DNA of 39,750 bases from the IMG/VR virus record IMGVR_UViG_3300010372_000003, positions 1-39,750 of that record. One strand, given 5' to 3'. The DNA comes from a virus. The position numbers and the translations under genes are program-made. Positions 15,335 through 23,148 of this stretch are shown one piece after another; the first letter of the stretch is position 1, and every line of letters begins with the position of its first letter. A model generated the notes under the pieces. That model searched no databases, was not told where the DNA came from, and saw only the letters and a program-made list of their open reading frames with translations.

Positions 15335-15648
15335 ACTACCCCCGCCAAGCCATCGAAGCCTGCGAAGCCCTGTCTCACCCTCTGCCCCATCCCACCATGC
15401 CCATCGACCACAGCACCACCGACGACCGCATCACCGAATGGCTGCACCAAGCAGACGGAGGCGCCAAGGTTGACACCAAACACCCCGGCCCCATCGAAAT
15501 GCTGGATGCGCCTGAGCCCAAGTTTGCGCGCATCTGCTGGGGCTTGATCGTGCTGGCGGGCTGGGGCCTCGCTGGCCTGGTGCTGGTTGCCGTCGCTGGC
15601 CCCCTGATCGAAAACCTGCCCGCACTGATGGGCGCAACTACGAAGTGA
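15331..15648 (+). CDS. Small membrane protein of unknown function
   Basis: 105 residues from ATG 15331, which overlaps the previous stop. His/Pro-rich soluble N-terminus (HPLPHPTMPIDHSTTDDRITEWLHQADGG) and one C-terminal membrane helix (ICWGLIVLAGWGLAGLVLVAVAGPLI). The next gene's GTG overlaps its stop as GTGA. Membrane location is clear from the sequence; the role is not. Confidence 0.65.
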   Translation: MNYPRQAIEACEALSHPLPHPTMPIDHSTTDDRITEWLHQADGGAKVDTKHPGPIEMLDAPEPKFARICWGLIVLAGWGLAGLVLVAVAGPLIENLPALMGATTK

Positions 15649-16454
15649 GCAACACCATGAGCGACATCGCGCTGCAACCAACCAAGCAATTCGACCTGAG
15701 CCCGCAGACCTTTGAGCAGGCCTTGACCTTTGCGAACTACCTCGCTGACTCCGACCTGGTGCCCAAGGACTTCAAGGGCAAGCCAGGGAACTGCCTGATC
15801 GCCATGCAGTGGGGCTCCGAGCTTGGCCTCAAGCCCCTGCAGGCCCTGCAAAACCTGGCGGTGATCAACGGTCGCCCCGCTCTCTGGGGTGATGCTGTGA
15901 TCGGCATTGTCCGCGCCTCCCCGGTCTGCGAGTACGTGCTGGAGACGGACGACGGCATCACGGCCACCTGCAAGGTCAAGCGTCGCGGAGAACCGGAGCA
16001 GGTCCGCACGTTCAGCATGGACGATGCCCGAGGCGCCGGCCTGATCGGAAAGCAAGGCCCCTGGTCGCAGTACCCCAAGCGGATGCGCCAGATGCGTGCC
16101 CGAGCGTTTGCCCTGCGCGACGTGTTCCCTGATGTGCTGCGCGGCATGCCGGTGGCCGAGGAAGTCATGGACATCCCGAAGGACATGGGCGCGGCCCAAG
16201 AGGTGGCCCCCGCCCAGCAGGCGCAGCCCAAGACCTACCCGGGCGACAAGTTCGCAGCCAACCTGCCCGCCTGGGGCAAGGCCATCGAGGCCGGGAAGCT
16301 GACCGCCGACGAGGTGATCCGACGCGCCGCAACCATCGGCCCCCTGACCGAAGAGCAGGCCGCCAAGGTCCGCGAGTTCAAGGTGGCCACGGTCATCGAC
16401 AACGACACGGGCGAGATCCAAGGCGCTGAACCCAACCATGCAGACGCCGAGTAA
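15645..16454 (+). CDS. recT: RecT-family single-strand annealing protein
   Basis: 269 residues from GTG 15645 (GTGA overlap); an ATG at 15657 is the alternative. The core matches RecT-type annealing proteins: TFANYLADSDLVPKDF, NCLIAMQWGSELGLKPLQAL, NLAVINGRPALWGDAVIGIV, and WSQYPKRMRQMRARAFALRDVFPDVL (about residues 20-175). The C-terminal part with an Ala/Gln linker and a helical end (TADEVIRRAATIGPLTEEQAAKVREF) is less conserved. It would anneal strands trimmed by the exonuclease encoded next. Confidence 0.83.
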   Translation: MSNTMSDIALQPTKQFDLSPQTFEQALTFANYLADSDLVPKDFKGKPGNCLIAMQWGSELGLKPLQALQNLAVINGRPALWGDAVIGIVRASPVCEYVLETDDGITATCKVKRRGEPEQVRTFSMDDARGAGLIGKQGPWSQYPKRMRQMRARAFALRDVFPDVLRGMPVAEEVMDIPKDMGAAQEVAPAQQAQPKTYPGDKFAANLPAWGKAIEAGKLTADEVIRRAATIGPLTEEQAAKVREFKVATVIDNDTGEIQGAEPNHADAE

Positions 16455-16475: not shown

Positions 16476-18269
16476 ATGCAAACCCATGAACTGATCCAAG
16501 GGTCGCCGGAATGGCTGGCCTACCGAGCCCACCACTTCAATGCCTCCGACGCCCCGGCGATGATGGGAGTGAGCCCTTACAAGACCCGCACCCAGCTGCT
16601 GCACGAGATGCACACCGGCGGCCTGGTGCCCGAGGTTGATCCAGCCACGCAGCGACGCTTTGACGACGGGCACCGATTCGAGGCCCTGGCCCGCCCGCTG
16701 GCCTGCGAGATCATCGGTGAAGACCTGTACCCGGTGACAGGCAGCGAAGGAAAGCTGTCGGCCAGCTTCGACGGCCTGACCATGCTGGGCGACGTAGCGT
16801 TTGAGCACAAGACGCTCAACGATGACCTGCGCGCAGCTTTCGACCAGATCGACAGCATCGCGCCAGAGCACCGAGACGCAGCAGGTGGCGCCGAGTTGCC
16901 GCTGATCTACCGCATTCAGATGGAGCAGCAATGCGCCGTGTCTGACTGTGCGAAAGTCTTGTTCATGGCCTCCCGCTGGGCCGCTGACGGCACGCTGCTG
17001 GAAGAGCGCCACTGCTGGTACTTCCCTGACGCTGAACTGCGCGCCAAGATCCTGGCCGGCTGGGAGCAATTCGCATCAGACCTCGCCGCCTACGTGCCGC
17101 CCGCCGTCGAAGTCAAGCCGGTGGGCCGCACCCCGGACAACCTGCCGGCCCTGCGCATCGAGGTGACTGGCGCTGTGACCGCCTCCAACCTGGCCGAGTA
17201 CAAGGCCCATGCGCTGGAAGTGTTCAAGGGCATCAATCGCAGCCTCTCCACCGACCAAGACTTTGCCGATGCCGAGAAGGTGGTGAAGTGGTGCGGTGAT
17301 GTTGAATCCCGCTTGGCCGCAGCCAAGGAGCACGCCCTCAGCCAGACAGCCACCATCGACACGCTGTTCAAGGCCATTGACGACATCAGCGCCGAGGCAC
17401 GCCGCACGCGCCTGGAACTGGACAAGCTGGTCAAAGCCCGCAAGGAGCAGATCCGCGAAGACATCGTTGCCGATGGGCGCCGTGCGCTGGCTGAGCACAT
17501 GGCCGGCCTGAACGAGCGACTTGGCAAGGCTTACATGCCGAGCGTGCAGGCCGACTTCGCCGGGGCCATCAAGGGCAAGCGCACCATCGACAGCCTTCGA
17601 GATGCGGTGAGCACGACCCTGGCAAATGCCAAGATCGAAGCCAGCGCCACCGCTGACCGCATCCAGATCAACCTGGGAACCCTGCGCGATCTGGCGAAGG
17701 ATCACGCCTTCTTGTTTGCCGACACGGCCAGCATCGTGCTCAAGGCGCCGGACGATCTCACTGCACTGGTGAAGACGCGCATTGCCGACCACGCCGCAGC
17801 CGAAGCCAAGCGACTGGAAGCCGAGCGCGAGCGCATCCGCGCCGAGGAACAGGCCCGTATCGAGCGTGAGCAGCGTGAAGCCCAGCAGCGCGAAGAGCGT
17901 CTTGCAGCCGCAGCACTTGCGCAAGAGCGCCAACAGGCCGCAGCAGCCGAAACCGCCCGACTCCTGCAAGAAGCAGCCAAGCCAACGGCGCCTCCCGTCT
18001 CGCTGGTCGACGCCAACAACGCAGCCCGCGCCGAGATCAAGCAGGCCACCCAGGAAGCCGCCACCGTCAAGCTGGGAGAGATCTGCGCCATGGTCGGCCC
18101 AGGCTTTTCGATGACCGCTGCTTTCGTCTCCGACACCCTGGGCATCGAGCACTCAGCCACCGACAAGGCGGCCAAGCTCTACAAGCCCAGCGACGTCCCG
18201 CTGATCTGCGACGAACTGATCCAGCGGCTGGAAAAGATCAAGGCTGGCGAACTTCAAGCTGCCGCCTAA
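16476..18269 (+). CDS. YqaJ-type (lambda Exo-like) nuclease with long coiled-coil extension
   Basis: 597 residues. Residues 1-200 are a YqaJ/lambda exonuclease domain: GSPEW (9-13), SDAPAMMGVSPYKT (24-37), GHRFEALARP with Glu69, SASFDG with Asp99, and FEHKTL with Glu110 and Lys112, the metal-binding ExK. Residues about 215-500 are helical, with a long charged coiled coil (ERERIRAEEQARIEREQREA...) resembling DUF1351-like phage proteins; the last 70 residues form a small helical domain (KLGEICAMVGPGFSMTAAFVSDTLGI). A two-protein recombination system with RecT is likely. Its stop codon lies in a GCCTAAC string. Confidence 0.85.
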   Translation: MQTHELIQGSPEWLAYRAHHFNASDAPAMMGVSPYKTRTQLLHEMHTGGLVPEVDPATQRRFDDGHRFEALARPLACEIIGEDLYPVTGSEGKLSASFDGLTMLGDVAFEHKTLNDDLRAAFDQIDSIAPEHRDAAGGAELPLIYRIQMEQQCAVSDCAKVLFMASRWAADGTLLEERHCWYFPDAELRAKILAGWEQFASDLAAYVPPAVEVKPVGRTPDNLPALRIEVTGAVTASNLAEYKAHALEVFKGINRSLSTDQDFADAEKVVKWCGDVESRLAAAKEHALSQTATIDTLFKAIDDISAEARRTRLELDKLVKARKEQIREDIVADGRRALAEHMAGLNERLGKAYMPSVQADFAGAIKGKRTIDSLRDAVSTTLANAKIEASATADRIQINLGTLRDLAKDHAFLFADTASIVLKAPDDLTALVKTRIADHAAAEAKRLEAERERIRAEEQARIEREQREAQQREERLAAAALAQERQQAAAAETARLLQEAAKPTAPPVSLVDANNAARAEIKQATQEAATVKLGEICAMVGPGFSMTAAFVSDTLGIEHSATDKAAKLYKPSDVPLICDELIQRLEKIKAGELQAAA

Positions 18270-19377: not shown

Positions 19378-19431
19378 GTCTAACCAGACAGCTAAGCGGC
19401 GCTCTGCGTCCGCTTGAGCGCCCGGTTAGGC
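19378..19431 (-). repeat. attC-like recombination site 1
   Basis: Plus-strand order: GTCTAAC, 6 bp, GCTAAGCGG, 10 bp, CCGCTTGAGC, 5 bp, GTTAGGC. The outer boxes match RYYYAAC and GTTRRRY, the inner boxes pair with one unpaired extra base, and the 5/6 spacer asymmetry plus the side of the extra base put the canonical attC orientation on the minus strand. The flanking GCCACAGG/CCTGTGGC adds a further stem. Confidence 0.65.
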
Positions 19432-19527
19432 CTGTGGCGCGAAGCCGAGGACTGACCACCACCACAAGCCGACCGCACAGCGGTGGGCGCCTGATTTGAG
19501 CCTGCGAAGCGGGCGGAAAGGTATGAG

Positions 19528-19788
19528 ATGAGCAACACCGTGGACACACACCCTGTTCAGACCCATCAACACCGCAGAGGCGCATCCCGCGCACCCACTT
19601 CCGTGACGCTGGCAGCCTACGAGGTCTATTGCCATGTCTATGCACCGCAGCCCGCCATGGTGACGGGCGAATGCCGTGGTGGTTTCAGCGCCGGAGAGCT
19701 TATCGCCTTCCTCTACGCGCGCAGCTTCCCCAAGACAGAGTGGCGTGCACGGGTGGACGAGGCATTCAAGGGCGCGGAGAACCTTTGA
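19528..19788 (+). CDS. Cassette A gene, unknown function
   Basis: 86 residues, MSNTVDTHPVQTHQHRRGAS..., with GGAAAGG upstream. The conserved-looking core is AAYEVYCHVYAPQPAMVTGECRGGFSAGELIAFLYARSFPKTEWRARVDEAF (about 30-82), a small mixed fold I cannot name. The gene fills the unit between attC-like sites 1 and 2; its stop codon is one base before site 2. About 95 non-coding bases precede it. The first 14 bases of the gene are identical to those of the cassette C gene. Confidence 0.65.
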   Translation: MSNTVDTHPVQTHQHRRGASRAPTSVTLAAYEVYCHVYAPQPAMVTGECRGGFSAGELIAFLYARSFPKTEWRARVDEAFKGAENL

Positions 19789-19789
19789 G

Positions 19790-19849
19790 GCCTAACCAAA
19801 CAGCTAAGCGGCGGTGCGAAGCAACGTCCGCTTGAGCGCCCGGTTAGGC
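19790..19849 (-). repeat. attC-like recombination site 2
   Basis: Plus strand: GCCTAAC, 6 bp, GCTAAGCGG, 16 bp, CCGCTTGAGC, 5 bp, GTTAGGC. The inner boxes are identical to those of site 1 but the 16-bp tip differs in sequence and length, as expected of attC variable tips. It starts one base after the stop codon of the cassette A gene. Confidence 0.7.
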
Positions 19850-19878
19850 CATGCAGCCACAACGACGAGAGGTGAAAG

Positions 19879-20133
19879 ATGAAGACCTGGAAACGAGACG
19901 ATCAAGCCACACAAGACCTGATCAGCCTTGGTAGCGACAAGCTGGCGATGCTGAGCGTAATTGCTAAGTGGACCGATGAGCAGTGCCAGCAAGCTGAGGC
20001 CTGGGCCAGCGCCCGGCATTTCCGCGCCAGTGACAACGCGGTGCATGTGCCCGAGATGCCGCCGCACGTTGTGGCCTTGCCTGAGCGCGCATACGGTGTG
20101 TACGACGCCGATTTTCGCACCTGTGAGGCCTAA
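19879..20133 (+). CDS. Cassette B gene, unknown function
   Basis: 84 residues, MKTWKRDDQATQDLISLGSD..., start 19879 after GAGAGGTGAAAG. Mostly helical in the first 60 residues (DKLAMLSVIAKWTDEQCQQAEAWASARHFRA), then a Pro-rich stretch (HVPEMPPHVVALPERAYGV). No family recognised. It lies alone between attC-like sites 2 and 3, and its stop codon TAA is inside the first box of site 3. Confidence 0.65.
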   Translation: MKTWKRDDQATQDLISLGSDKLAMLSVIAKWTDEQCQQAEAWASARHFRASDNAVHVPEMPPHVVALPERAYGVYDADFRTCEA

Positions 20134-20188
20134 CCAATAAGTTAACCGGCGCCCAGCATGGGCGTCCGAGTTGAACTGGCGGTTAGAC
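20128..20188 (-). repeat. attC-like recombination site 3
   Basis: Plus strand: GCCTAAC, 6 bp, GTTAACCGG, 16 bp containing a CGCCC/GGGCG hairpin, CCGAGTTGAAC, 5 bp, GTTAGAC. The inner boxes differ in sequence from sites 1 and 2, yet pair with two extrahelical bases on the same arm and keep the same spacing, so structure and not sequence is conserved. Confidence 0.7.
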
Positions 20189-20211
20189 CGCTACCAACAC
20201 AGGAGATGAAG

Positions 20212-20418
20212 ATGAGCAACACCGTCAGATGGTGCGTTGAAGAAGCCGATACAGGATTGCCTGTAGCAAGTGGATGCGCACAAACACCAGATGAGGCGTA
20301 CCGAGAAATGATGCACTACGTCGCGCAATACAGCCAGGACGGAGAGGTGCGATTCTGGATGCGGCAAAACCGAAAGACCATCAAGGCGGGCACATGGCCA
20401 GCCACGGTGAGGGTCTAA
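20212..20418 (+). CDS. Cassette C gene, unknown function
   Basis: 68 residues from ATG 20212 (MSNTVRWCVEEADTGLPVAS); AGGAG at 20201 is correctly spaced for this ATG and not for the one at 20206. A strand-rich start, a helix (TPDEAYREMMHYVAQYS), then EVRFWMRQNRKTIKAGTWPATV. No family recognised. The stop codon TAA lies within a GTCTAAC box, as in cassette B. Confidence 0.6.
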   Translation: MSNTVRWCVEEADTGLPVASGCAQTPDEAYREMMHYVAQYSQDGEVRFWMRQNRKTIKAGTWPATVRV

Positions 20419-20446
20419 CCGATATTAGGCGTCACAGACTGCCTGA
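20413..20446 (-). repeat. Degenerate attC-like site 4
   Basis: GTCTAAC over the stop codon, a 6-bp spacer, and then TTAGGC-GTC pairing with GAC-T-GCCTGA with an extra base, resembling the outer and inner boxes of sites 1-3. The expected GTTRRRY box after it is absent. A GATGGCCC/GGGCCATC hairpin follows at 20450-20470. Confidence 0.35.
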
Positions 20447-20487
20447 TAACGATGGCCCGCGCTGGGCCATCCACACAGAAAGCACAC

Positions 20488-20646
20488 ATGAGCACCAAAG
20501 AACAAGCCCTTGACACGATGATCCTGCTGTCTGCAATTGAGTCGTGGGCATTCAGCGTCGGCAAGCCATTGCCCGACTACCTTCACGAGAAACTGAGCAA
20601 TGCAGTTGATGCGCTGCGAGCTGAGATTTTGGAGGATGCCAAGTGA
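20488..20646 (+). CDS. Small helical protein of unknown function
   Basis: 52 residues from ATG 20488 (MSTKEQALDTMILLSAIESW); nearly all helical (LHEKLSNAVDALRAEILEDAK). A GTGA overlap links it to the next gene. It begins a run of six overlapping small genes that leads to the excisionase-like gene. No family recognised. Confidence 0.55.
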   Translation: MSTKEQALDTMILLSAIESWAFSVGKPLPDYLHEKLSNAVDALRAEILEDAK

Positions 20647-21730: not shown

Positions 21731-21980
21731 CGCAGAAGAGTGCGCAGAATTGCTGCGCTGCACGCCAACGCAAGTGGAAGAACTGGCCCGTTCTGGCGAG
21801 ATCCCCGGCCTCAAGCTGGGCCGCAGTTGGCTGTTTGTAAAGGGCGATCTGCTGGCCTACCTGGCAGAGAAGGCGCGCAAGGAAGCCGAGGCCAGACGCG
21901 CACGACGCCAGCCTGGCGTCACGCAGTTGGTCACGAAGCGGCGCCGGAAGACGCCGCCGCCTTTGCCGGTGCCTGCGTAG
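21714..21980 (+). CDS. xis: Excisionase-like helix-turn-helix protein
   Basis: 88 residues. Residues 1-55 match the MerR-like winged helix of excisionase-family proteins: DAEECAELLRCTPTQVEELARSGEIPGLKLGRSWLFVKGDLLAYLAEKAR, where W and the F-x-K-x-DL turn are typical. The tail is basic (TKRRRKTPPPLPV). It would bend the att site to favour excision. It ends the plus-strand operon and its last 50 bases overlap the convergent integrase 3' end. Confidence 0.78.
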   Translation: MSETIDAEECAELLRCTPTQVEELARSGEIPGLKLGRSWLFVKGDLLAYLAEKARKEAEARRARRQPGVTQLVTKRRRKTPPPLPVPA

Positions 21981-23148
21981 CCCACATGCGCGCCGCCAGA
22001 TCCGCGCCCCGGAAGCTGGCATACCGCTGTGCCATGGTCGAGTTGGCAGACCAACCCATGATCCGATTGACCTCTTCCTGACGGAACATCCAGTTGCCGG
22101 TGGCGTCACGCATTTCCAGCCACCTGCATGTGGCCTCATGGCGAAGGTCATGCTCACGCAGTCCGAACACCCCCGCATACTCAAAGGCCAGCTTGAAGCG
22201 GAATGAAAGCCGCTGGCTGACGGTCTTGATGTCGATGCCGGGTTCTTCGTCCATGAACGGGAAAAGCCACGCCTGCGGCAGCATGGCCCGCGTGGACAGG
22301 TAGACGGACAGCGCCTCATGTACCTCGGGCCGCATGGGCACGTCGCGGAAGACCACCTTGCCGCGCCATTGCTTGCTGGACTGCACGCGGATCACCTTCT
22401 CATTCATGTCGATCTGGTTACGCCTGAGCGTGTACGCCTCTTTCAGGCGAAGCCCAGTCCCAACGATCAGCAGGAACATGGTCAGCAGAGCATTGCCGCC
22501 CTTGAGTTGCAATCCGCGCTCGCGGTCTTCTCGCTGACCACCCGACAGCGCCCACACGATCTTGGCCTCTTCGCCAGGGTTCAGGCGCCGGTCACGCGAG
22601 ACATCGGTCTTGGCCGTCTTGCCTGCCGCCTCGACCATGGCCCGGTCACGTTCGTTGTAGCTGCTGTACCCCTTGGGCAGCAGACGCACTGGGTTCTGCA
22701 TCACCAATCCAGGGTGGTGCCGCATCCATTCGTCAATGCACCGGCCAAGCGCCTGGATACGGTGGCGGATCGATCCTGGTGCTAGGTTCTTCTCGACCTT
22801 GAGGTGTTGCAGGTACTTGTTCAGCCACGCATAGGTGGCATCTTCCAGCCGAATCGCGCCGACCTCCATCACCAGCGATCCCAGCGCAGATTGCTGAGTG
22901 GGCGCAGCGTGCCCGCTGTTTGCCCATGCTCTCACCACCTGGGACAGCGTGGCATCCGTCAGAGCCTTGGGTTTGAGCAATTCAGCCGGAGGCTCGATGC
23001 CTGACATCTTCATGATGCGCCACTGCTCAGCGTAGGCGTTTGCCTCGGCCTCAGTGTCGAATGTGAAGTAGCGACGGCCACCCGGAAGGGATGGATGGCG
23101 AAGGCCAATCTCCCACTTGCCTGACGGCTTCTGTCGTGCTCTTGCCAT
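21931..23148 (-). CDS. int: Tyrosine recombinase integrase
   Basis: 405 residues, start ATG 23148 with GGAG at proper distance. N-terminal arm-binding part (KWEIGLRHPSLPGGRRYFTFDTEAEANAYAEQWR), core-binding helices (about 60-165), then the catalytic domain with Arg234 (GTGLRLKEAYTL), Lys259, His333-x2-Arg336 (REHDLRHEATCRW), Trp366 (MGWSAN) at the His/Trp position and the nucleophile Tyr376 (MAQRYAS). It is a phage integrase, not an IntI: it lacks any added segment near the His-x-x-Arg patch. Convergent with xis, so it is not in the PL-like operon. Confidence 0.93.
   Translation of the reverse strand: MARARQKPSGKWEIGLRHPSLPGGRRYFTFDTEAEANAYAEQWRIMKMSGIEPPAELLKPKALTDATLSQVVRAWANSGHAAPTQQSALGSLVMEVGAIRLEDATYAWLNKYLQHLKVEKNLAPGSIRHRIQALGRCIDEWMRHHPGLVMQNPVRLLPKGYSSYNERDRAMVEAAGKTAKTDVSRDRRLNPGEEAKIVWALSGGQREDRERGLQLKGGNALLTMFLLIVGTGLRLKEAYTLRRNQIDMNEKVIRVQSSKQWRGKVVFRDVPMRPEVHEALSVYLSTRAMLPQAWLFPFMDEEPGIDIKTVSQRLSFRFKLAFEYAGVFGLREHDLRHEATCRWLEMRDATGNWMFRQEEVNRIMGWSANSTMAQRYASFRGADLAARMWATQAPAKAAASSGAAS

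Follow-up and report, generated by a model that had tools for sequence, protein, structure and literature searches.

An integron-like cassette array with inverted genes in a phage early operon, probably turned over by a host integrase

Integrons are bacterial systems for stockpiling adaptive genes, and three hairpins that divide part of a phage operon into single-gene units raise the question of whether a phage carries such a system too and, if so, what moves its cassettes. The window analysed here, an entire IMG/VR record 39,750 bases long, has a 123-bp direct terminal repeat and is thus apparently a complete phage genome; it encodes portal, tape-measure and tail-fibre proteins plus a RecT/RecE pair. 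The hairpins lie 3' of recE, within a rightward operon of small genes (the phage early operon), in a region that gave no blastn match among phage and plasmid records. We conclude, with a probability of about 0.82, that positions 19378-20430 are an integron cassette array in this early operon, most likely turned over by an integron integrase (IntI) of the host acting in trans. The features of the locus are:

15645..16454, plus strand: RecT-like ssDNA annealing protein
16476..18269, plus strand: RecE-like exonuclease, same operon, upstream of the array; an attC lies 3' of recE in several relatives too
19378..19431, minus strand: predicted attC site 1 (cassette C), R' GTTAGAC, R'' GCCTAAC; 39.6 bits, E 1e-7
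19384..19795, minus strand: cassette C, core to core; putative limits taken from the cores, crossover G^TT on the minus strand
19528..19788, plus strand: gene C, 86 aa, conserved phage protein family with 61 viral loci
19790..19849, minus strand: predicted attC site 2 (cassette B); covariance model 57.9 bits, E 3e-12
19796..20133, minus strand: cassette B, core to core; putative limits
19879..20133, plus strand: gene B, 84 aa; stop TAA inside an attC core (20131-20133)
20128..20188, minus strand: predicted attC site 3 (cassette A); 37.6 bits, E 3e-7; two extra bases in L''
20134..20418, minus strand: cassette A, core to core; putative limits
20212..20418, plus strand: gene A, 68 aa; stop TAA in the attI-like core at 20413
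20413..20430, minus strand: putative attI-like docking core GCCTAATATCGGTTAGAC, attI simple-site pattern
20413..20487, no strand assigned: non-coding conserved flank, shared almost unchanged with phage contig G033
21931..23148, minus strand: tyrosine integrase of phage type (PHROG 1), not an integron integrase

An earlier note on this DNA had described the three elements as attC-like, with extra bases always on the right arm and the sites reading on the minus strand, and it located them correctly. The RYYYAAC and GTTRRRY boxes are exact at all three sites and enclose L''/L' arms with an extra base in L''; on the plus strand these extra bases fall on the right arm every time, so that the attC top strand is the minus strand of the window. 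A covariance model built from 33 attC sites, drawn exclusively from bacterial arrays beside integron integrases, finds exactly these three sites in the window, all on the minus strand and at 37.6 to 57.9 bits, against 15.1 bits for the best plus-strand match; the pattern that supplied its training loci was partly modelled on the window sites, but the individual sites used for training were selected for their proximity to intI. On bacterial genome contigs the narrow attC pattern had no match and a relaxed one picked out 86 stretches, and among bacterial genomes holding the attC pattern 24 of 30 have an above-cut-off IntI. Reading away from intI, the extra L-arm base lies on the same side in every intI-adjacent array with scanned sites, which makes the model strand-specific. 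As single-stranded DNA, the window sites fold better than nearly all of their dinucleotide shuffles (z -3.0 to -4.5). With R''/R' and L''/L' structure and significant scores in a purpose-built model, the three elements are, judged from their sequence, integron attC sites.

No integron integrase accompanies them in the window, as the earlier note had said: the sole tyrosine recombinase identified there scores 24.7 bits against TIGR02249, for which the cut-off is 265. The window thus lacks a complete integron, with intI adjoining attI, and its three sites, clustered within 811 bp of an apparently complete record, constitute the phage-borne CALIN (at least two clustered attC sites without an integron integrase) that had been proposed.

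We depart from the earlier note at 20413, where it had seen a fourth, decayed attC. The element at 20413-20419 has a single core and a weak fold (z -1.5), and its sequence on the attC strand is GCCTAATATCGGTTAGAC, with the pattern CTA-N6-GTTAG. Bacterial attI sites adjoining intI, for example GTCTACTAAGTGTTAGGC or GTCTAATTGGCGTTAGGC, have the same spacing, and the pattern C[TC]A-N6-GTTAG fits nine of ten such sites as well as the window end. In most phage arrays such a core closes the last gene, and the DNA past it is not attC. CTA-N6-GTTAG itself occurs at 5 of 11 phage array ends and at no other of the 232 GTTAG motifs in the array loci (Fisher p 9e-8), the window and G033 being homologous so that four of the five are independent; that the motif is clear at only these five ends counts against the main reading. 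We set the decayed copy aside and consider the element better read as a putative attI-like docking core, on which basis the region can be read as that core plus cassettes A, B and C.

Each unit holds one small gene, and the stop codons lie at or in the outer box, much as the earlier note described: gene B ends with a TAA in a core, gene C with a TGA (19786-19788) just ahead of its core, and gene A with a TAA in the core at 20413. Cassette limits follow the crossover rule G|TTRRRY (PMC9892861). A search for relatives of gene B found none. Members of the gene C family mostly lack a model-detectable attC, and in the unrelated phages L277 and L301 they are attC-bounded, which suggests that phage genes may become cassettes. 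The gene C protein has an AlphaFold model of pLDDT 90, yet no fold match in PDB or BFVD.

Genes A, B and C all oppose their attC sites, and in this respect they are not canonical co-oriented cassettes. This inversion, remarked on earlier as unlike most cassettes, is general in the phage group to which the window belongs: in 13 phages, one of them represented by two contigs and all from a viral sample gathered by means of a single attC type, every one of the 55 unit genes found with a codon-trained caller opposes its attC. Because that caller failed on bacterial cassettes, a model-free longest-ORF rule was used for comparison; by this rule 22 viral units are opposite and 3 the same, against 362 bacterial units the same and 32 opposite (p 6e-19), and most of those 32 look like spurious antisense ORFs. 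Nearly all units of L185, a contig with a full intI, have canonical polarity, as does the published phage TJE1 by the covariance model, so that inversion belongs to this phage group and not to all phage arrays. The idea that ORFs on the minus strand are the true genes was considered and ruled out, since the proteins with relatives (methyltransferases, Acb2/Tad1-like proteins and the gene C family) are encoded in the direction opposite to attC. For some inverted genes the start falls within the gene's own attC, one hairpin arm encoding the N-terminus (L242:8535-8864, L249:17357-17851), and similar N-terminal stretches recur among different proteins of this kind.

Along the minus strand, the array would consist of the attI-like core followed by cassettes A, B and C, each closed by an attC hairpin. 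We propose that a host integron integrase, acting in trans during infection or lysogeny, would gain, lose or swap cassettes through the folded bottom strands of the attC sites, which correspond to the window's plus strand. Because of their inversion against attC, the genes in the cassettes share the reading direction of the phage operon and point towards the docking site. Incoming cassettes would accordingly be added at the array end farthest from the promoter, where their expression would come from the phage operon and not from an integron Pc promoter. Host IntI would be the simplest actor because the attC type and the attI spacing match those of host integrons and no full intI was found on the phage contigs with inverted arrays.

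Related phages differ by whole units with breakpoints at the GTTRRRY core, the pattern that the earlier note had suggested looking for. Contigs L018 and L019 are about 99.98% identical over about 12 kb and diverge right after a GCCTAAC core, and the L019 attC past the breakpoint equals the next attC of L018 over about 65 bp, making one 384-bp cassette difference that is visible at a single junction, the L019 contig stopping about 60 bp further on; the leaders past that attC also differ. The window and G033 are unrelated to the left of the 20413 core, and from the core on their 75-bp non-coding flank is nearly identical, followed by a gene 51% identical at the protein level; at the other end the two share 53 identical bp of the outermost attC (site 1), past which their genes differ. 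This breakpoint homology is what bears on cassette integration at 20413, a search of viral contigs for the attI-like element having returned the known relative G033 alone and no empty site. Even phages with little DNA similarity elsewhere have related cassettes. Among contigs with RecE relatives, a strong attC lies 3' of recE in 4 of 80, always in the orientation opposite to recE, and one Giesbergeria-family bacterial genome has the same arrangement. In L241, the phage array lies just 5' of a terminase-like gene and not in a recE operon.

A competing account holds that homologous annealing by RecE/RecT between repeated hairpins and leaders shuffles the units, the attC sites being inherited passengers. 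The recE and recT genes lie just upstream of the array, and the pairing of leader and gene sometimes changes irrespective of attC, a point that counts against our main reading in that site-specific recombination alone is insufficient to explain it. In L318 (3879-4209), a cassette-C-type leader with half an attC is fused to a gene A relative (85% identical), at a locus where the covariance model found no attC; genes C and A of the window share their first 14 bases (ATGAGCAACACCGT; 19528-19541 and 20212-20225), a possible leader-gene recombination point; and the leaders of the first units of L238 and L239 are 94% identical over 105 bp, but each runs into a different gene from the start codon on. 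The L018/L019 difference, however, runs from core to core between attC sites whose sequences diverge immediately past the core, the window and G033 part at a core whose flank is not attC, and annealing requires neither the extra-base asymmetry of the attC sites nor an attI-like end. We consider it unlikely that annealing accounts for the array; RecE/RecT may nonetheless add leader-gene reshuffling to turnover by a host integrase.

The contents of the cassettes, and their traffic with bacteria, bear on where such arrays come from. A scan of 61 proteins, 58 of them from phage arrays, gave five hits to PHROG 67, a DNA methyltransferase family, two each to Mom-like, Lar-like and Acb2/Tad1 hairpin proteins, and one to an RNA ligase. 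The two Acb2/Tad1-like proteins (L249:14752-15033 and L250:2227-2493, an assignment based on motif and a common PHROG) are encoded by cassettes that are 77% identical. Several cassettes of related phages look like counter-defence genes, and the small genes of the window may have a similar anti-defence role. In bacteria, an integron with intI on the Giesbergeria contig L234 has three convincing inverted cassettes (506-718, 1396-1668 and 2191-2439) with phage-type genes; the product of one is related to that of the window gene 20488-20646, and the product of another is an Ead/Ea22-like phage protein with a sub-threshold Pfam score. Of the sampled Giesbergeria-family genomes, 9 of 201 have a RecE relative and 41 of 101 an above-cut-off IntI, a possible supply of the integrase.

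A single capture from a bacterial chromosomal integron, leaving an inactive piece now in decay, would fit both the missing intI and the precedent of Vibrio phages with captured chromosomal integron fragments (Qi et al., PMC9892861). We find this improbable: gene polarity is inverted, unlike about 92% of scored bacterial units, the phage cassettes show little DNA similarity to the bacterial arrays compared, the sites score 37-58 bits with intact cores, and arrays recur in many phages with recent turnover. Slightly less probable again is movement of the cassettes by the phage's own tyrosine integrase (21931-23148), whose gene lies 1.5 kb from the array, or by host XerCD; the former is of the PHROG 1 phage type and far below the IntI cut-off, and bacterial arrays of the same attC type mostly come with IntI. 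It is very improbable that the hairpins are fixed RNA elements of the operon (weak terminators, translational insulators or processing sites) and not recombination sites, for although they are intergenic, lie near stop codons (the core TAA closes an ORF of at least 150 nt at 34 of 63 sites, compared with 29 of 109 CTAAC controls) and belong to a class of site thought to act as weak terminators (PMC9892861), their number, order and neighbours vary between near-identical phages, their strand asymmetry fits bottom-strand recombination sites, and an Rfam scan of the window at gathering thresholds matched no family.

Returning to turnover by a host integrase, we lean slightly towards a broader proposal, in which this phage group would keep its own pool of inverted cassettes, rich in counter-defence genes, at attI-like sites where host IntI moves them, the inverted Giesbergeria cassettes being a footprint of exchange. 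If so, these phages, which carry no integron integrase, exploit the integron as a port into which counter-defence genes can be plugged. Polarity would then be a simple mark of phage-derived cassettes in bacterial integrons, making the question of cassette origin testable.

Phage-borne CALINs have already been published (Qi et al. 2023, PMC9892861), and in the parts of that paper drawn on here they resemble the window as integrase-less attC arrays in phage genomes and the related phages in having methyltransferase cassettes; several of their attC sites work with IntI1. The same parts describe TJE1 and PH101 as having the typical direction and P12002L as divergent, whereas the arrays considered here show systematic inversion and an attI-like end. 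The portions of the open-licence literature consulted yielded no description of inverted polarity, of an attI-like end or of phage-type inverted cassettes in a bacterial integron. The chromosomal integrons of Xanthomonadales and Burkholderiales, where the attC pattern was mostly met, share the attC type and the attI spacing with the window, but they carry intI and their genes read with attC (the 362 to 32 split given above). The 'reverse' integrons of Treponema (PMC3607928) likewise break the rule for direction of transcription relative to attI; there intI is reversed, whereas here there is no intI, and each gene runs against the attC of its own cassette. Finally, the non-classical integration sites termed attG (PMC12901181) can receive cassettes outside an integron, as the putative docking site would, and the window site differs from them in having attI L-box spacing and in being conserved between two phages.
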